DNA of 64,000 nucleotides. It comes from Spiractinospora alimapuensis (lineage in GTDB: Bacteria > Actinomycetota > Actinomycetes > Streptosporangiales > Streptosporangiaceae). This document shows positions 4,436-15,226 of the stretch, piece after piece (position 1 is the stretch's first letter; every line of letters begins with the position of its first letter). The translations under genes and the position numbers were made by a program. The notes under the pieces are model-generated. The model was not told the DNA's origin and did no database searches. It worked only from the letters and a program-made list of their open reading frames with translations. The DNA lies in contig NZ_CP072467.1 of the NCBI RefSeq assembly GCF_018437505.1, positions 4,550,010-4,614,009 on the forward strand, given 5' to 3'.

Positions 4436-4951
4436 TCAGTTGGCGGTCGGCGCCAGCGCCGTGACGTCGATCCGCGCCCCGGGCCGGGCGAGCGCCCCGG
4501 AGAGCGCCGTCCCGTCGCCGACGTCCGGGTACGTCTTCGCGGCCGACAGGGCGACGACGCGCGAGTCGTCGACCAGGGCGCCGCCCTCGGCGAGGGCATC
4601 GAGGATCGCGCGACAGTGCTTGTCCAGGTCGCCCGCGGAACGCCTGAGCGGCCATGCGCGCGTGACTGTTCTCGGCCGCGCCACCGTGACGACCAGGCGG
4701 ACCGCCACCGGCCCGTCGTGCGGCCAGACGCCGGCCGGTTCACCGAGGTGTCGCCGCTCCTGGATCACGCGCCGAACCTCGGCGGCGACCAGGTGGCGCC
4801 ACGTCCGCAGCTTCGGCGAGTCGGCGACCAGCCGGCCGCCTCCTATATGGCGGAGGCTGCCTTGCGGGGCCGGCGCGCCGTACGCGGTCACAGCGAGCGC
4901 GGGGATGGGGCCGCCCCCGGTGGGGGCGGCCGTGGCGTGGGTGGTGGTCAT
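4436..4951 (-). CDS. rusA: RusA-family Holliday junction resolvase
   Basis: This 171-residue product is a RusA-type endonuclease, which cuts four-way junctions during phage recombination. The key motif DLDKHCRAILDAL (about residues 110-122) followed by LVDDSRVV and AAKTY provides the clustered aspartates and lysine of the active site. An N-terminal beta region (AVTAYGAPAPQGS) matches the family start. It overlaps the recT gene upstream by 4 bp, giving a RecT-YqaJ-RusA recombination cassette. Confidence 0.87.
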   Translation of the reverse strand: MTTTHATAAPTGGGPIPALAVTAYGAPAPQGSLRHIGGGRLVADSPKLRTWRHLVAAEVRRVIQERRHLGEPAGVWPHDGPVAVRLVVTVARPRTVTRAWPLRRSAGDLDKHCRAILDALAEGGALVDDSRVVALSAAKTYPDVGDGTALSGALARPGARIDVTALAPTAN

Positions 4952-5796
4952 TCCGCACCTGCTGCGAACGCGGACTCGGTCGGGGTCGGTTCGGCGCTCG
5001 TCGCCGGGTCGACCAGCTCGGCGTCGTACACCTCGCCTGTGTCTTCATCCACGGCGGGCGAGCCGCTGGAGGAGGGTGCTTGGTGTTGTTCGTTGGCGAC
5101 GTCCTGGGCGGCGCGGAGCTGCTCACGCCGGTATTCACTGGAGGTGGGGATCCATTTGGCGAGCTGTCGGACAGCGGACTTGAGCCACATCGATTCCTCC
5201 CAGCGCTGCCACGGGGAGTACTGCGAGTCGGCACCATCGGATTGGGCTCGGATCTTGGCGATGTGTGCCCGGTTGAGCACGATCACCTTGCTGACGGCGC
5301 CGTCCTTCATGACGGCGTAGGCGTAGACCAGGCGCATTCGGCCGCGATCTTCGGTGTCCCAGTCGATCTCGTGCACTGGTCGGTCGTGGCGGCCCGGCGC
5401 GTAGTCGAACCTGTCGGCCTCGTGGACGATCTCGGCGACAACGGAGGAGATCGCCCCGGCGCGGTGCATCAGCTCGACTAGCCCTTGCCAGCCAGTGATG
5501 CCCTGGACTTCGAGCTGGCCTTTGCGCTTGCGTGGGGTGAGGTAGTACTCGGCGGTGCCCGGGGTGAGTCCTTGTTGGGCGGCCTCCATCAGCGCGGTCA
5601 TCAGCGCGCCGGGGTTGTTGGCGGCGGCCTGGGCGAGTTTCGGGTCGCGGCGCAGTACACCTTGAGCGAGCCGGACCCACTGGGCGGGCTTGACGTGGGT
5701 CGGCATGACCTGGGTGAGGTCAGCGCGGTACTGCTCGACCATGGCGCCAGGGCCGGATTCGCGCTTGGCCACAGCGTTCGTGATGGTCTCGGTCAT
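4948..5796 (-). CDS. recT: RecT-family single-strand annealing protein
   Basis: This 282-residue product anneals complementary single strands produced by the partner nuclease. Recognisable RecT blocks include the Q-rich QQGLTPGTAEYYL region, QGITGWQGLVELMHRAG (about residues 98-114) and the YSPWQRWEESMWLKSAVRQLAKW block (about 190-212). An acidic, proline-rich tail follows. Its ATG overlaps the end of the YqaJ gene region (ATGA), and its stop overlaps rusA. Confidence 0.93.
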   Translation of the reverse strand: MTETITNAVAKRESGPGAMVEQYRADLTQVMPTHVKPAQWVRLAQGVLRRDPKLAQAAANNPGALMTALMEAAQQGLTPGTAEYYLTPRKRKGQLEVQGITGWQGLVELMHRAGAISSVVAEIVHEADRFDYAPGRHDRPVHEIDWDTEDRGRMRLVYAYAVMKDGAVSKVIVLNRAHIAKIRAQSDGADSQYSPWQRWEESMWLKSAVRQLAKWIPTSSEYRREQLRAAQDVANEQHQAPSSSGSPAVDEDTGEVYDAELVDPATSAEPTPTESAFAAGAE

Positions 5797-6722
5797 CGGG
5801 GCTCCTTGGCGCGTGCGGGCATGAGGGACTTCGTGGTGCCGTCGTCGCGGACGACACGGGTGGCGACCGGGGCGCCGAGGCAGACGGCACGCCGGCCAGT
5901 GCCGATCAGGTCGAGGATCGTCGACGTGGCGCGCCTCTTCTCGGCCTCTGCGTTCTTCGCGGCGGCCAGAGCTTCCCGGTACTCGTCGGCGACGAAGCCG
6001 GGAACGTCAACCTCGACGTCGTCCACGCCGTCGGGCAGTGTCTTGACGACCTGGTACGTGGCCGTGGCGCCGTCGATCGGCGGACGGGACCCCGGACGGT
6101 CCGGTCCGGGGAGGCTGGCGATGAAGTCGGTAGCGGCCCGCCGCATCAGCGCGATCTCTTCCTCGGCACCGTCACGCGTGATCACGTACTCGCGGTAGTC
6201 GCTCCCGGCGACGAGAACGGCTACGTGGGCCGTGTCGAGGTCGAGGACATCCAGGTACCACAGCACCTGGCACCGGTAGTAGACCGGGATCTGGGCCGTT
6301 CCCGGCTCGCCCCACCCGGTGTCGTCGCGGGCGGTCTTGATCTCCAGCACCGCGCGCGCCTTGCGGCCGTGACGCGTGTAGATCAGCCGGTCCGGGCTCG
6401 CGAGCCGGTCGCTGGCGACCGCGTCGCCGAGTGCCCACACGCCACCCGCACCGACCCGAAGTTCGGGGTGGGCGTCGGCGAACGCGGCGGCGATCGCGGG
6501 CTCCAGGCGGCGCCCCCAGTCCATCTGGGGGTTCTCCGGCTGCTCGCCGGCGAGCCCCGCCTTGCGATGCCACAGAGAGAACGCACTCTCCCACGGGGAC
6601 AAGCCGAGGATCGCCGCTACGTCGCTACCGCCCACGCGCCGCGCGCGCTGGGCGAAGAACGCCGCGGATCCCGGAGTCCGGGGCGGCAGCGCAACCAAGT
6701 CGACGCGGCTACTCATCTTCAT
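5793..6722 (-). CDS. YqaJ/lambda-type exonuclease
   Basis: This 309-residue nuclease resects double-strand ends for RecT. It shows the YqaJ signature RRVGGSDVAAILGLSPW (about residues 27-44), then SPDRLI with the metal-binding aspartate (about 109), EIKTA (Glu-x-Lys, about 126-130) and a following Gln-containing segment (YYRCQVLWYL). The C-terminal helix is charged. ATG 6722 is used; ATG 6716 is a nearby alternative. Both lie inside the 3' end of the 34-codon gene upstream, so translation is probably coupled. Confidence 0.9.
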   Translation of the reverse strand: MKMSSRVDLVALPPRTPGSAAFFAQRARRVGGSDVAAILGLSPWESAFSLWHRKAGLAGEQPENPQMDWGRRLEPAIAAAFADAHPELRVGAGGVWALGDAVASDRLASPDRLIYTRHGRKARAVLEIKTARDDTGWGEPGTAQIPVYYRCQVLWYLDVLDLDTAHVAVLVAGSDYREYVITRDGAEEEIALMRRAATDFIASLPGPDRPGSRPPIDGATATYQVVKTLPDGVDDVEVDVPGFVADEYREALAAAKNAEAEKRRATSTILDLIGTGRRAVCLGAPVATRVVRDDGTTKSLMPARAKEPR

Positions 6723-8121: not shown

Positions 8122-8434
8122 CGGCGGTCTCCCCCTCGCGGTCGACCATCGCCCACACCTCGACGGCGACGTCATCGACGACCGTGGTCGCGGTCACCTT
8201 GGTCCACGCGGGGCTGGCGTGGGTCGACCGCTCCTCGTGCGCCTCGACGCCGAGGGCCTCGGCCCACGCGGCGACGACCGCGCGCTCGGCGTCGTCGCCG
8301 GTGTGGGCGCACGTCTGGCCGACCAGCTCGCCCCGGCGCACCGTCCACTGGACGGGCGACGCGGCGGCATCGGAGTGGATGGTGAGCAGCACCATCAGGA
8401 CGCGCGCGGCGTCGGCCTGCGTGGGGGTTCTCAT
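8114..8434 (-). CDS. Phage hypothetical protein
   Basis: This 106-residue product starts MRTPTQADAARVLMVLLT and has two Trp-Ala-containing helices (VVAAWAEALG and VEVWAMVDRE). It overlaps both neighbours by one to eight bases. No motif is recognised; the reading frame, start and coupling support it as real. Confidence 0.5.
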   Translation of the reverse strand: MRTPTQADAARVLMVLLTIHSDAAASPVQWTVRRGELVGQTCAHTGDDAERAVVAAWAEALGVEAHEERSTHASPAWTKVTATTVVDDVAVEVWAMVDREGETADE

Positions 8435-8652
8435 CACTCGCCACCCCCCGCAGGGGAACCGCCGGTGAGCAGCGCGCGAACCTCGGTCTCCCGATACCGG
8501 CGATGCCCACCCAGCGTGCGGATCGAGGTCAGCTTGCCCGCCTTCGCCCAACGCGTGACGGTCTTCGGGTCAACACGGAACATCGCGGCGACCTCGGCAG
8601 GGGTCAACAGGGGCTCAGGCGTGAGCCCTCCGTGGTCTGGGATACTGGTCAT
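8434..8652 (-). CDS. BldC/MerR-like helix-turn-helix protein
   Basis: The 72-residue product is a single winged-helix domain of the BldC/HTH_17 type: LLTPAEVAAMFRVDPKTVTRW is the helix-turn-helix, and TLGGHRRYRETEVRALL forms the wing and last helix. GAAAGGA stands about 8 nt before ATG 8652. It could act as a DNA-bending excisionase or a transcription factor. Its position next to another excisionase-like gene supports a role in the lysogeny region. Confidence 0.8.
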   Translation of the reverse strand: MTSIPDHGGLTPEPLLTPAEVAAMFRVDPKTVTRWAKAGKLTSIRTLGGHRRYRETEVRALLTGGSPAGGGE

Positions 8653-8733
8653 TGGCCCTGTCCTTTCTCTTGGTGGTGATGGGGCCGAGCCCTCGTCCCG
8701 GCGGCATCCGGGCGGGGGCGCTTTCATGAGGGG

Positions 8734-8934
8734 TCAGGCGACGGCCTGGTCGACGAACTCGTCGAGGGCTTCGATCGGCACACGGCGTGCGGTGTGGATC
8801 TTGATCGACCGAAGTCGGCCGGTCTTGATCAGCGACCAGCACATGGCCTCGCTGATTGCGAGCGCACCGGCGGCTTCGTGGACCCGCAGTAGCCGGCGTG
8901 GCGTCGGCGCTGCGTCGGCGTCGACGGAATTCAT
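8734..8934 (-). CDS. Excisionase-like DNA-binding protein
   Basis: This 66-residue product has an HTH_17/excisionase pattern: RRLLRVHEAAGALAISE (first helices), then LIKTGRLRSIKIH and RRVPIEALDEFVDQ (wing and last helix). Xis proteins of this type bend attachment-site DNA and direct the integrase to excision. The start overlaps the stop of the Cro-like gene upstream (ATGA), so it would be made when the lytic promoter is open. Confidence 0.78.
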   Translation of the reverse strand: MNSVDADAAPTPRRLLRVHEAAGALAISEAMCWSLIKTGRLRSIKIHTARRVPIEALDEFVDQAVA

Positions 8935-9173
8935 GCCGCCACCTCCTCGGCATTTATCGGCATCCTGAGGATCGCGGCGCGCCGGACGCCGAGGGCGTCC
9001 GCGATGCGACCGGCAAGAACCGCCGAGCAAGCACGAGTTTCAAGTTCGATGTTGCTGACGTGCTGTGATGTGGTTCGGGCGCGGTCGGCGAGCTCGGATG
9101 TGCTCATGCCGAGGAGGTGGCGGAACTCGCGAATGGCGGTGCCGTTCACCGCCGCTGTGGGGGTCTTGGGCAT
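8931..9173 (-). CDS. XRE-family regulator, Cro-like, first gene of the leftward operon
   Basis: This 80-residue protein is almost entirely a helix-turn-helix domain: FRHLLGMSTSELADRARTTSQHVSNIE is the classic XRE HTH. ATG 9173 is chosen because the upstream alternatives (9194, 9200) would place the operator repeats inside the coding region. It diverges from the larger repressor gene across 214 bp of operator DNA, the arrangement of a Cro/CI switch. Cro identity is inferred from its small size and position. Confidence 0.78.
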   Translation of the reverse strand: MPKTPTAAVNGTAIREFRHLLGMSTSELADRARTTSQHVSNIELETRACSAVLAGRIADALGVRRAAILRMPINAEEVAA

Positions 9174-10330: not shown

Positions 10331-11788
10331 ATGACCGACGAAGGACGAGGACGCGCCCCCAACCTGCGCTCCTCCATCTACTTCTCTGACTCCGACGGCC
10401 TCTGGCACGGCTGGGTCACCATGGGCGTCAAGTCCGACGGCCGCCCCGACCGGCGCCACCGGAAAGCGCAGACCGAAGCCGAAGTCACCCAGAAAGTCCA
10501 GGCGCTCGAAGCCGACCGGGACGCGGGCCGGGTCACGAAGACCGGCAGAACCCCTACTGTCGAGCAATGGTTCGAACGGTGGCTGACGAGGGTCGTTTCC
10601 CGCGAGGTCGACGAGAACACCCTCACGACGTCCTACGAGCCAACTGTGCGACGCCACATCATTCCGGGCCTCGGTCGCCACCGCATCGACAACGTGCTGC
10701 CGGACCACATCGAGGACTTCTACGAGCGCCTGGCTGACGAGAAGGGGCTCGCCCAGTCCACGATCTTGAAGGTTCACTGGAGGCTGATGGCTGGCTTCCA
10801 AGTGGCCACCGATCGGGATCTGATCAAGCGCAACCCGGTCTCATTGGTGAAGCCGCCCTCGAGTGAAGCGGTGGCCGAGGGCGAGCCGCTCGGACGGGAG
10901 GAGGCACGTGTACTCCTGAGGGCATGCCGGGGTCGACGGATGGGCATCCGCTGGTCGTTGGCACTCACCTTGGGGATCCGCCAGTCCGAAGCCCTCGGCC
11001 TCCGGTGGCCCTACCTGAAGGCCGCATGCGACCCATGCCGAGTGGTCTACGACCTCCAGGACCTGTTCGCTACCGACGCCAAGGGCTGCCCGGCGTGCAG
11101 TGGCCAGCTCCACTATGAGGCCCGGGTCGAGTGGCAGCTTAAGCACCGCCCGTTCCGTCATGGGTGCGAGGACATCGCGGCGTGTACTAAAGGTAGGCAC
11201 CTCATCGCCTGCCCGACGGGGTGTAAGGGTCACCACAAGCCGAAGTGCGAGCCCGGATGCACGGCGCGGTATCACCAGTGCCCGAAGCGCCCGTGCCCGA
11301 CAGCGTGCGAAGGCCACGGCCGTGAGTGTCCGGATCGGGTCGGCGGCGACTACTACTTCGGGCGGCGCAAGGCGTCGGGAAAAGGAAAGGGGAAGCAGCG
11401 CCTGGTCTTGCCCATCCCGCCCCCGTTGGTGACGGAGCTCCGGGTGCACTGGCAGATGCAGCGGCACGAGGCAGACCTTGCAGGAGAGAACTGGGAAGGC
11501 GCCACATGGGACCTGGTCTTCGCCTCTCCAGCCGGAGGGCCGATCGGGAAGCACACCGACTGGGAAGACTGGAAGCGCCTCCTGGCCGTGGCCGGGGTGC
11601 GCGACGTTCGGGTTCACGATGGGCGGCACACCGCCGCGACTATCCTCACGGAGCTTGGGGCAGACGCCAGGACCGTTCAGGAGATTCTCGGCCACTCCCA
11701 GATCTCGCAGACCGAGCGGTACATCCACGTGAGCAGCGACCAAGCGCGCGCGGCGATTGGGAAGATGTCGACGCTGTTCGACGAGTAG
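10331..11788 (+). CDS. int: Tyrosine integrase with Cys-rich insertion
   Basis: This 485-residue integrase catalyses recombination between phage and host attachment sites. The N-terminal SAM-like core-binding domain spans about residues 80-190. Catalytic residues visible are Arg217 (GIRQSE), His429 and Arg432 (HDGRH), His455 (LGHSQ) and nucleophile Tyr464 (ERYIHV). Between Arg217 and His429 lies a segment (233-333) with 14 cysteines and many histidines, far longer than in lambda-type integrases and probably zinc-binding. A GAGGAGAA ribosome-binding site precedes ATG 10331. The gene ends 95 bp from the tRNA-Arg 3' end, its likely attachment site. Confidence 0.93.
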   Translation: MTDEGRGRAPNLRSSIYFSDSDGLWHGWVTMGVKSDGRPDRRHRKAQTEAEVTQKVQALEADRDAGRVTKTGRTPTVEQWFERWLTRVVSREVDENTLTTSYEPTVRRHIIPGLGRHRIDNVLPDHIEDFYERLADEKGLAQSTILKVHWRLMAGFQVATDRDLIKRNPVSLVKPPSSEAVAEGEPLGREEARVLLRACRGRRMGIRWSLALTLGIRQSEALGLRWPYLKAACDPCRVVYDLQDLFATDAKGCPACSGQLHYEARVEWQLKHRPFRHGCEDIAACTKGRHLIACPTGCKGHHKPKCEPGCTARYHQCPKRPCPTACEGHGRECPDRVGGDYYFGRRKASGKGKGKQRLVLPIPPPLVTELRVHWQMQRHEADLAGENWEGATWDLVFASPAGGPIGKHTDWEDWKRLLAVAGVRDVRVHDGRHTAATILTELGADARTVQEILGHSQISQTERYIHVSSDQARAAIGKMSTLFDE

Positions 11789-11883
11789 TAGAGGTGCATG
11801 GAGCGCTGTGGACTGCAACCTGGATTGCAACCCACAGGCTCCGTTCTTGGTGACGTTGCGAAGTGCTCGCAGGTCACCGCGTG

Positions 11884-11956
11884 TGGCCCCAGCAGGATTC
11901 GAACCTGCGGCACCCGCTTTAGGAGAGCGGTGCTCTGTCCCCTGAGCTATGAGGCC
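11884..11956 (-). tRNA. tRNA-Arg (anticodon CCT)
   Basis: The minus strand folds into a full 73-nt cloverleaf: acceptor GGCCTCA/TGGGGCC, anticodon loop CTCCTAA, T arm GCAGG-TTCGAAT-CCTGC, and discriminator A. No CCA is encoded. The anticodon CCT reads the rare AGG arginine codon. Its 3' end faces the integrase gene, so the T arm and acceptor half are the likely prophage attachment site. Confidence 0.95.
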
Positions 11957-12295
11957 CGGCACACCAAGGATATCGGAACCGCCGGCAGGTCGTGCCTTTC
12001 ATGCTCGGCGGGCGAGCGTGTGTGTGCGGACCGCTAGGATCGACCCTCTGTTGCGAGTAAGGTTTTAGGACGGTTTGAATCCGTAACCGACGGATCCAGT
12101 ACCGCTCGAATGTGTGTGGGCCCCGGCCCCCGCGGTTGTGACCGGTTGTGGGAGACTGCCGCGCGTCGCATCGAGCGGGCGTCCGTATCGGAGACGGGTG
12201 TACGCTCTAGGCGCTGTGTCGGCGCCATCGGCGCGAGTCGCAAACCCCACCCTGACCGCGCCGATCGAGGTATGGGCAGTCGGAGGACCATTTCA
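11957..12295. other. Intergenic region between tRNA-Arg and the M15 peptidase gene
   Basis: About 340 bp hold the tRNA promoter and probably the peptidase promoter. I see no convincing gene, hairpin or repeat in it. A GGAGG ribosome-binding site at 12282-12286 belongs to the peptidase gene. Confidence 0.4.
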
Positions 12296-13408
12296 GTGCC
12301 GTTCGCATCGGGAGTGCTGCCATGGACCCGCGGCACGACGACCGGCGGTTCGAGCAAGGGTGCTCTGCGTGATCACTCCAGGCTCACACGCAGCAGCGTC
12401 CTGGTGATCGCGGCCGCGTTGCTCGCCGGGCCCGTGGGCCAGACCGCGGCCGCTCCTGTCCTGTCGCCGGTCTCGGCCGACGATCTGGACGACTTGGCGG
12501 AGCAGGCCGAGGAGGCACGCGACGAGCTCGAGGAAGCCACCGACGCCTACACCGAGCGCGAAGAGGAGCTCGAGGCGGCCCAAGAGGAGTTGGTCTCGAC
12601 CCTGCACTCCCTACAGCAGACCGAGCTGCGACTCGGTGAACTGCGGGAACCACTGGCCGAACTGGCGGCGACGCTCTACAAGCAGCCCGAGGCCGGCGTC
12701 GTCGGCGTACTGACCTCAGAGTCCCTCGGTACCGACCTCGAGGTGGAGTCCTACGTCCACAAACTCGCCGAGGACCGGGAAGCCGTCCTGGAAGAGGCGA
12801 GCGGGCTGCACGACGACCAGGGCGAACTGACCACGTCCGCCCAGGAGCTCCAGGCGAGCACCCAGCTCGAACGGGTGGAGCTGGAAGACGAACTGGAGGA
12901 GCTCCGCAACCTCTCCGAGGAGAGCACCGAAGCCCTCTACGCCGAGCTGGAGGCCCGCGGGATGTCCGTGGACGCCTACATGGCCGGCGTGGACTGCGAC
13001 ACCAGCCAGGTCGAGGCGGCCGACAACGCCCCCAACGGTCTGATCCCCGAGGACGCCCTGTGCGACGTGGGGGACGGTGACCTGCTGCGGGCCGACGCCG
13101 CGATCGACTTCCTCGCCCTGAACCAGGAGTACAACGAACAGTTCGGTGAGGACATCTGCATCACCGCGGCCTATCGTGACCTGCCGAACCAGCACCGCGT
13201 CTACGCCGAGCGCCCCGGATTCGCGGCGATCCCCGGAACGAGTACCCACGGTCGAGCCCTCGCCCTCGACCTGTGCAACGGGTTGAACAACTACCGTTCC
13301 GAGAAGTGGAACTGGTTGGAGACCAACGGGGCGCCCTACGGGTGGATCCACCCCGACTGGGCGAAGGGAAGCCCGTTCGAGCCGTGGCACTGGGAGTACG
13401 AAGGCTGA
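12296..13408 (+). CDS. Secreted M15-family (VanY/D-Ala-D-Ala carboxypeptidase-like) peptidase with coiled coil
   Basis: This roughly 370-residue protein has a signal-like hydrophobic stretch (VLVIAAALLAGPVGQTAAA, about residues 33-51), then a Glu-rich coiled coil (about 60-210) and a C-terminal M15 domain. Zinc and catalytic residues are in STHGRALALDL (His and Asp) and PWHWEY near the end. It probably trims peptidoglycan outside the membrane; the coiled coil resembles that of cell-wall hydrolases controlled by division proteins. GTG 12296 is chosen for its GGAGG 9 nt upstream; ATG 12272 is an alternative. Confidence 0.85.
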   Translation: MPFASGVLPWTRGTTTGGSSKGALRDHSRLTRSSVLVIAAALLAGPVGQTAAAPVLSPVSADDLDDLAEQAEEARDELEEATDAYTEREEELEAAQEELVSTLHSLQQTELRLGELREPLAELAATLYKQPEAGVVGVLTSESLGTDLEVESYVHKLAEDREAVLEEASGLHDDQGELTTSAQELQASTQLERVELEDELEELRNLSEESTEALYAELEARGMSVDAYMAGVDCDTSQVEAADNAPNGLIPEDALCDVGDGDLLRADAAIDFLALNQEYNEQFGEDICITAAYRDLPNQHRVYAERPGFAAIPGTSTHGRALALDLCNGLNNYRSEKWNWLETNGAPYGWIHPDWAKGSPFEPWHWEYEG

Positions 13409-13511: not shown

Positions 13512-13919
13512 TCAGGTCGCCACCTGGGGCGTCACCTGGACGGTGCACTGCGAACAGCGCGTCGCCTCGTTCGGGATCTCGCTGCGGCATTCGGGGCACT
13601 CACGCGTGGTGCTCTCCTCCAGTCGGGTCATCCGGTCGTAGAGCGCGCCCATGGGCAGGACGACCAGGAAGTACAGGATCGCGGCGATGATGACGAACGC
13701 GATCACGGCGTCGACGAACGCGCCGTAGAGGAACTGGCTGCCGTTGATCTCGAAGTAGAGGTCCGAGAACTCCGGGACACCGCCGAAGATCCCCAGCAGT
13801 GGCGTGATGAAGCCCTTGGTGAACGCCGTGATGAGATCACCGAACGCGGCGCCGATCACGACCGCGACCGCGAGTTGGATCAGGTTTCCCTGCAACAGGA
13901 ACTTGCGGAATCCGCTCAC
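13512..13919 (-). CDS. mscL: Large-conductance mechanosensitive channel with zinc-ribbon tail
   Basis: This 135-residue MscL opens under membrane tension to release solutes after osmotic downshock. GFRKFLLQGNLIQLAVAVVIG is the conserved N-terminal helix and first transmembrane segment; the second (about residues 65-90) ends in a charged cytoplasmic helix. The tail carries CPEC and CSQC, forming a zinc ribbon that ordinary MscL lacks. GTG 13919 is preferred to ATG 13937 because it has a GAGGG site and fits the family start. It is convergent with the peptidase gene. Confidence 0.9.
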   Translation of the reverse strand: MSGFRKFLLQGNLIQLAVAVVIGAAFGDLITAFTKGFITPLLGIFGGVPEFSDLYFEINGSQFLYGAFVDAVIAFVIIAAILYFLVVLPMGALYDRMTRLEESTTRECPECRSEIPNEATRCSQCTVQVTPQVAT

Positions 13920-13948
13920 GACAGCACCCTCAATCAACCGTGTGTTTT

Positions 13949-14830: not shown

Positions 14831-15226
14831 TCAGGCGTTGGCGCTGGCGGCGGCCTTGGAGCCGGAGGAGCCAGAAGACCCGGAAGAGGTGGAGGAGTCC
14901 GAGCTACCGGAGCCGGACGACGCGGTGGAGCTCGAGGAGGAGTCGCCGCCGGAGCTGGCGGTCTCCTTGGCACCGCTGTCGGAGTCCTTGGAGCCGCTGG
15001 AGCCGTTGGATCCCGCTGAGCTGGAGGAGTTCAGCGAGGAGCTGGAACCGGAGCGGCTGTCGTTACGGTAGAAGCCGGAGCCCTTGAACACGACACCGAC
15101 GGCGGAGTACACCTTGCGCAGGCGGCCCTGGCACTCGGGGCAGGTCTGGAGGGGGTCGTCACTGAACTTCTGGACGGCCTCCAGCTCCTTTCCGCACTCG
15201 GTGCACGCGTACTGGTAAGTAGGCAC
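14831..15226 (-). CDS. FmdB-family zinc-ribbon protein with serine-rich tail
   Basis: This 131-residue protein starts MPTYQYACTECGKELEAVQ and has a second knuckle CPEC. This is the FmdB/CxxC_CxxC_SSSS regulatory-type zinc ribbon (about residues 1-55), ending FKGSGFYRND. The remaining 75 residues are an extreme Ser/Gly low-complexity tail with scattered Asp and Lys. The family is widespread but poorly understood. The tail is much longer than in the shortest family members. Confidence 0.88.
   Translation of the reverse strand: MPTYQYACTECGKELEAVQKFSDDPLQTCPECQGRLRKVYSAVGVVFKGSGFYRNDSRSGSSSSLNSSSSAGSNGSSGSKDSDSGAKETASSGGDSSSSSTASSGSGSSDSSTSSGSSGSSGSKAAASANA

Follow-up and report, generated by a model that had tools for sequence, protein, structure and literature searches.

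A predicted zinc module of variable size in the catalytic domain of an actinobacterial prophage tyrosine integrase

What are 14 cysteines doing in the middle of the catalytic domain of a phage integrase? The question is raised by a prophage of Spiractinospora alimapuensis (NCBI RefSeq assembly GCF_018437505.1), whose integrase gene lies in positions 4,550,010 to 4,614,009 of contig NZ_CP072467.1 (64,000 nucleotides, hereafter the window). Tyrosine recombinases are well-studied enzymes, and we know of none with described metal sites in its catalytic domain. An earlier note on this DNA counted 14 cysteines at residues 233-333, including CDPC and CPAC, within a stretch of about 210 residues between the catalytic arginine and histidine, and proposed that a single insertion forms a zinc module. 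Both counts were borne out. The single insertion was not: the cysteine-rich stretch is two separate inserts, both in the catalytic domain, a Cys4 ribbon (module 1, residues 233-256) and a His/Cys array that we call HGC (module 2, residues 277-333). That they form a metal module, most likely for zinc, is well supported by sequence, and for the ribbon also by predicted fold; the metal itself is predicted. Actinobacterial integrases carry the array as a family trait; with the same ligands shared across the branch, it is no oddity of the window protein.

The identity of the enzyme is clear. Against Pfam the protein matches Phage_integrase (PF00589, E 1e-18) and Phage_int_SAM_3 (E 3e-6), and it matches the PHROG integrase at E 2.8e-53. 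The named matches are tyrosine recombinase/integrase families, and no serine recombinase family is among the matches listed. With the PF00589 catalytic domain and its R, K, HxxR and Y, the protein is a tyrosine recombinase. The candidate catalytic residues R217, K347, H429, R432, H455 and Y464 are all present, and we take them to have these catalytic roles; in a 57-row alignment all are invariant except H455. There are 15 cysteines (residues 199, 233, 236, 253, 256, 279, 285, 294, 298, 306, 310, 317, 322, 326, and 333), 14 of them within residues 233-333 and one among the remaining 384 residues. Arg217 to Cys333 spans positions 10979-11329, and Arg217 and His429 are 212 residues apart. The classical spacing of 70 to 90 residues given in the earlier note is too low for this branch, as insert-less relatives (L041, L057, L058, and L070) have 113-114 residues between the two and Tn1549 Int has ~119 by its own numbering. 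An excess of about 100 residues still holds when measured against the insert-less relatives. The cysteine richness is not due to chance. In 25 relatives at tRNA-Ser(GCT), 11 of 11 cysteine columns of the extracted stretch are invariant; with Cys and His columns set aside, 10 of the remaining 65 are, so the cysteines stay while their neighbors vary.

The CDPC (233-236) and CPAC (253-256) motifs of module 1 are two CxxC pairs, and their four cysteines are invariant in seven of seven aligned carriers. An AlphaFold2 model of the integrase was built on 57 sequences, with a mean predicted local distance difference test score (pLDDT) of 86.9 and a predicted template modeling score (pTM) of 0.78. Module 1 is a two-strand element in this model, with 10-residue block pLDDT means of 95-97 over residues 221-270. 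In a model of the inserts alone (residues 222-349, pLDDT 78.8), the ribbon resembles small modules of sirtuins, PolD, EndoQ, HypA, adenylate kinase, TFIIE alpha, and rubredoxin. Like the ribbon, those of sirtuins, PolD, EndoQ, HypA, and rubredoxin carry two pairs of Cys on a small beta structure, and we take the matched modules of sirtuins, HypA, and the like to bind zinc or another metal. We did not find a sequence relation to small zinc modules, as the ribbon profile (A4) gave E 0.57 or worse against solved chains. When the full-length model was compared with solved structures, the matches listed were all recombinases and no zinc protein stood out among them; a single domain can fill such a list.

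The place of module 2 is given by the closest solved relative. The best solved match of the model is Tn1549 Int (6emz; Z 23.4, root-mean-square deviation 3.1, 296 residues). The family profile aligns to Tn1549 Int up to N253 and again from T254 (chain residues 173/174), and the break falls at the tip of the hairpin H248-P263. In Tn1549 Int, Q249, R252, and T254 of this hairpin contact the DNA backbone, and when the hairpin was replaced the enzyme still bound but was impaired in cleavage and strand exchange (PMC5871717). Thus, the array would extend a hairpin that is known to lie on DNA. The smallest array is H-G-C, C, C-P, an H-C-C-C core with four ligands. A retroviral-type CCHC zinc knuckle has the spacing C-x2-C-x4-H-x4-C. 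This candidate was ruled out, as the units of the array are spaced C-x3-C-x2-H-x3-C. Several integrases carry variants of the array. In L055 (open reading frame, ORF, from 2872, + strand) an array of 12 Cys seems to repeat the core once within itself (WQHGC...C...C). L020 has Ser in place of the last array Cys, a possible loss of one site. In L029, L030, and L035 (Knoellia, Phycicoccus) the core is without its middle Cys and has a conserved His instead, leaving two Cys and two His, still four ligands.

The number of ligands follows a pattern. We counted a column as conserved at 90% identity or more, in eight classes of at least four sequences each that were chosen by clade and target; the choice was not blind, and the pattern of fours was first noticed by eye on single sequences. 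Conserved Cys and His columns together number 16 in each of the big arrays (Ser(GCT), 25 rows; Lys, 9 rows; window type, 4 rows), 12 in the Thr (7 rows) and Phe (4 rows) classes, and four in each of the core classes of 15, 12, and 6 rows. The eight sums are unchanged at 100% identity. Among 190 residue pairs, Cys plus His alone gives multiples of four in eight of eight classes, and the next pair, Gly plus Arg, does so in five. Cys alone or His alone breaks the rule because the classes trade one for the other (11+5, 10+6). Two smaller classes are in line, one of two rows with eight and one of three rows with four. Among single sequences, 49 of 66 multi-Cys arrays fit a motif rule versus 22% of shuffled arrays, and 88 of 109 fit when all are taken. 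Of 25 sequences added later, 22 fit, 19 of them four-ligand cores. Three of the six added non-core sequences fit (L114, L198, and L201), of which L114 had already been inspected before the test. Left out of the added set were L190, L192, L199, and L202 (no usable or new array) and L200 and L203 (no ORF). The sets of four are good evidence for predicted tetrahedral structural metal sites, four in the array and one in the ribbon. Since the counts come in fours, the window protein has 20 predicted ligands and five predicted zincs. Across related enzymes, the larger module thus seems to grow or shrink by one predicted zinc site at a time. The earlier note had raised the sensing of redox or metal. 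A sensor of this kind, turning the integrase on or off, has the cysteine richness alone in its favor. Four-ligand sets that trade His for Cys look structural, and we saw no regulatory evidence, redox sensing not being directly tested; we regard a sensor as very improbable.

We consider the following account to have somewhat better than an even chance. Each four-ligand set would hold one zinc, five in the window protein, and the zincs would stiffen the lengthened hairpin, which would grip or bend DNA beside the core site for cleavage, like the shorter hairpin of Tn1549. The arrays would have gained or lost whole four-ligand units. What the data show is the position, conservation, ligand counts, and family distribution of the modules, and the independence of array make-up from the target tRNA; zinc, DNA contact, and DNA shaping are what we infer. 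A number of observations weigh against this account. The array is well modeled at its ends and poorly in its middle (block means 66, 52, and 52 at residues 291-320), and the fold matches of the ribbon are weak (E >= 0.17, Z <= 4.2, over about 35-45 residues). The position of the array comes from alignment and the metal from a sequence pattern. Charge is unsupportive as a sign of DNA contact. The array has a mean charge of +6.0 versus +3.0 for segments of equal length from the same proteins, but is not unusually positive: in the median protein 25% of such segments match or exceed its charge, and in the window protein 28% do. The eight classes are related to each other, and two small classes depart from fours (three rows with 6, two rows with 13). 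At looser thresholds Ser(GCT) gives 17 (0.75-0.85), and Lys and Phe give 17 and 13 (0.75). The motif rule is missed by 17 of 66 multi-Cys arrays and, among the added sequences, by L195, by L197, which was badly cut by the script, and by L196, whose array is that of L001, an earlier miss, and whose source genome had already given a duplicate.

How widely is the module spread? A protein search gave 38 loci in genome contigs and 38 in viral contigs (with alignment). The integrase profile matched at least 93 of 297 genomes of the order (E <= 1e-60) and at least 95 of 394 of the class (E <= 1e-40), numbers that count integrases and not inserts; all genome-wide profile counts are lower bounds since only some candidates were scored. 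HGC is present in seven of eight phage and plasmid records hand-picked from the hit lists (mycobacteriophages LeBron, DuncansLeg, and Boilgate, phage Jace, a human-gut phage, pCM32, and a Prescottella plasmid) and missing in the eighth, a Streptomyces plasmid. The insert did not appear as a separate domain, for which the earlier note had suggested a search. In the phylum, at least two of 396 genomes had a match to the insert profile (A3), each within an integrase (one is L114), and 10 of 10 matches of the ribbon profile overlap integrase matches. Against solved structures A3 gave no match up to E 10, and against Pfam the insert matched Antistasin alone (E 0.24). A tblastn of the 111-residue insert against phages and plasmids resulted in five and three records with a best E of 4, which we took as chance. 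The ribbon is rare (at least 10 of the 341 host-family genomes) and is also found in L001/L002 (Nocardiopsis) and the viral contigs L047-L049. In L026 and L036 (Amycolatopsis) and L185 (plasmid pCM32), an extra HGC-C-C module sits at the ribbon position before strand beta1; different modules have thus been placed in both loops in different lineages.

A tree of 116 distinct integrases was built by a 'quick' method with support from the Shimodaira-Hasegawa-like approximate likelihood ratio test (SH-aLRT) only; it leaves out eight loci that were too long or broken and 53 ORFs that were duplicates, short, or lacking the motif, and long branches persist (e.g., L164). The ribbon falls on three branches, requires at least three changes, and is seen at Arg, Lys, and Thr targets. 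At least 23 changes of architecture are needed, with Cys counted up to beta3 so that a label may take in one Cys past the array. Such turnover would be expected if the predicted zinc sites were a structural ornament that keeps the loop folded, with units gained and lost freely and no role of their own. The variation of the array among integrases that share one target and the existence of relatives without it (L057 and L058) also fit an ornament. The ligands are, however, fully conserved inside classes while their neighbors vary, and the core is retained in 110 of 116 rows, a sample biased by searches seeded with carriers. We think an ornament unlikely.

Does the insert choose the tRNA gene? 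Class counts by target take in tRNAs within 2000 bp; a convergent tRNA lies no more than 150 bp downstream of 69 of the 116 integrases. On these 69 rows, a different set from that of the architecture count, there are 10 target changes. Target and array go together within clades: the 25 tRNA-Ser(GCT) rows are all 11C or 12C, and the four tRNA-Arg(CCT) integrases all have a ribbon and a window-type array. Across clades they do not. The 12 tRNA-Thr(CGT) rows have six architectures (core, 5C, 8C, 9C, 10C, and ribbon+8C), the 13 tRNA-Lys(TTT) rows have four (7C, 8C, 11C, and ribbon+10C), and L001/L002 share the ribbon and array type of the window protein but lie at tRNA-Lys and not tRNA-Arg. The make-up of the array does not follow the target tRNA. 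Since one target has many forms and one form has two targets, the array does not appear to choose the tRNA, and such a choice is the most improbable of the explanations that we weighed.

If not the tRNA, the array may set something else. We tentatively suggest, at well under even chances, that it is an evolvable zinc array of variable length that grows site by site from a DNA-gripping hairpin tip, and whose units would each bring a further contact, either to DNA beyond the core site or to a partner, and so determine the reach over the attachment (att) site or directionality and not tRNA identity. The main rival of the favored account, that of the zinc-stiffened hairpin, is that the predicted zinc modules dock an excisionase/directionality factor or the next integrase subunit and so govern integration versus excision. 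There is precedent in the directionality factor gp3, which binds the phiC31 serine integrase via its zinc domain (PMC5814800). The prophage encodes excisionase-like proteins (Table 1), and the independence of array and target tRNA is consistent with a partner that changes on its own. The location of the array at the hairpin that contacts DNA in Tn1549 speaks against docking, and we find it doubtful.

The stiffened, DNA-gripping hairpin that we favor can be set beside known systems. Tn1549/Tn916-type integrases (PDB 6emy, 6emz, 6en0, and 6en2; PMC5871717) share the fold, the catalytic residues, and, as far as the profile alignment at N253/T254 shows, probably also the hairpin that lies between first arginine and lysine and that in the Tn916-like enzymes is inserted between beta1 and beta4 of the small sheet. 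They differ in that there is no ribbon and 'zinc' occurs zero times in the main text of the Tn1549 paper (PMC5871717), whereas the window integrase has predicted zinc modules. Tn1549/Tn916-type enzymes have Tyr-Tyr or Trp-Tyr at the nucleophile, and single-Tyr enzymes form a distinct related clade (PMC5871717). Because Arg463 precedes the nucleophile Tyr464, the window integrase is not a Tn916-like transposase proper; it probably works like the Tn916-like Y-transposases without being a member. DIRS1/ALOG recombinases also have a zinc ribbon inserted in a tyrosine recombinase, in their case in the N-terminal domain between helices 2 and 3 (PMC3537659). Membership in ALOG/DIRS1 was ruled out, as both window inserts follow Arg217 in the catalytic domain. 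Large serine integrases likewise have a zinc module, and the zinc ribbon domain of a Listeria phage integrase contacts att DNA (PMC3783163). They are functional analogs and not relatives, being serine recombinases with zinc in the C-terminal domain and another fold and mechanism (PMC3783163, PMC5814800). Zinc DNA-binding units have also been placed inside Cre-type recombinases, an artificial case with Zif268 fingers at another site, between residues 278 and 279 of Brec1 (PMC11631766). In a survey of actinomycete integrative and conjugative elements (AICEs), 'cysteine' occurs zero times and the sole 'zinc' concerns another gene (PMC3218068). We did not find a description of zinc in this integrase branch among the open-license literature listed, which lacks most subscription papers. 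That a whole family has the arrangement makes it ordinary; what is new is its location, its size, and the way it varies in steps.

The features of the locus are collected in Table 1. The prophage is siphophage-like, sits in a tRNA gene, and measures 38.9 kb between two att copies, in agreement with the tRNA-Arg attachment site named in the earlier note: one further copy of its final 48 nt, identical throughout, lies 38.9 kb away and outside the window (genome 4523001-4523048). Between the copies are genes for the terminase large subunit, portal, major head protein, tape measure, an excisionase-like protein, and RecT-like and RecE-like recombination proteins (window 4948-5796 and 5793-6722, - strand). 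Past the tRNA we noted by eye a peptidase-like protein (12110-13408, +), an MscL-like channel (13512-13937, -), and an FmdB-like CxxC protein (14831-15226, -). A second integrase of the host genome (3542738-3543847; L041/L042), 75 bp from tRNA-Ile(GAT), is without Cys insert and without HGC. In L094 and L122 the integrase frame enters the convergent tRNA-Thr(CGT) gene by ~45 bp at the attachment site.

Table 1. Coordinates of the integrase, its modules, and neighboring prophage features in the window.
Feature	Position	Strand	Basis or remark
Excisionase-like helix-turn-helix (HTH) protein, candidate directionality factor	8434..8727	-	phrog_66 E 3.3e-10
Second small HTH protein, weakly excisionase-like	8734..9030	-	phrog_1877 E 3e-5, phrog_66 E 0.0016
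Prophage tyrosine integrase, 485 amino acids	10331..11788	+	ORF: ATG at 10331, stop ends 11788; family matches; predicted fold
Arg217 codon, first catalytic arginine	10979..10981	+	invariant, 57 rows
Module 1, Cys4 ribbon C233/C236/C253/C256, before strand beta1	11027..11098	+	Cys conservation, model confidence
Module 2, "HGC" His/Cys array H277 to C333, beta-hairpin tip	11159..11329	+	16 conserved ligands (10 Cys, 6 His)
Lys347 codon, counterpart of Tn1549 Lys264	11369..11371	+	invariant; profile alignment
H429-D-G-R432 catalytic motif	11615..11626	+	H429 and R432 invariant
Tyr464 codon, nucleophile	11720..11722	+	invariant
tRNA-Arg(CCT), integration target	11883..11956	-	95 bp past integrase stop
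att repeat, 48 bp, integrase end of prophage	11883..11930	.	final 48 nt of tRNA-Arg(CCT) gene

These integrases may require zinc and reducing conditions in vitro. The array shows insertion points for foreign modules, a current aim of recombinase engineering (PMC11631766), and would, if the tentative site-by-site reading is true, be nature's equivalent of a recombinase fitted with zinc fingers. The family would offer a natural series on one fold, starting without any site and ending at four array sites with or without a ribbon, in which the part played by hairpin insertions in att recognition and directionality could be tested.
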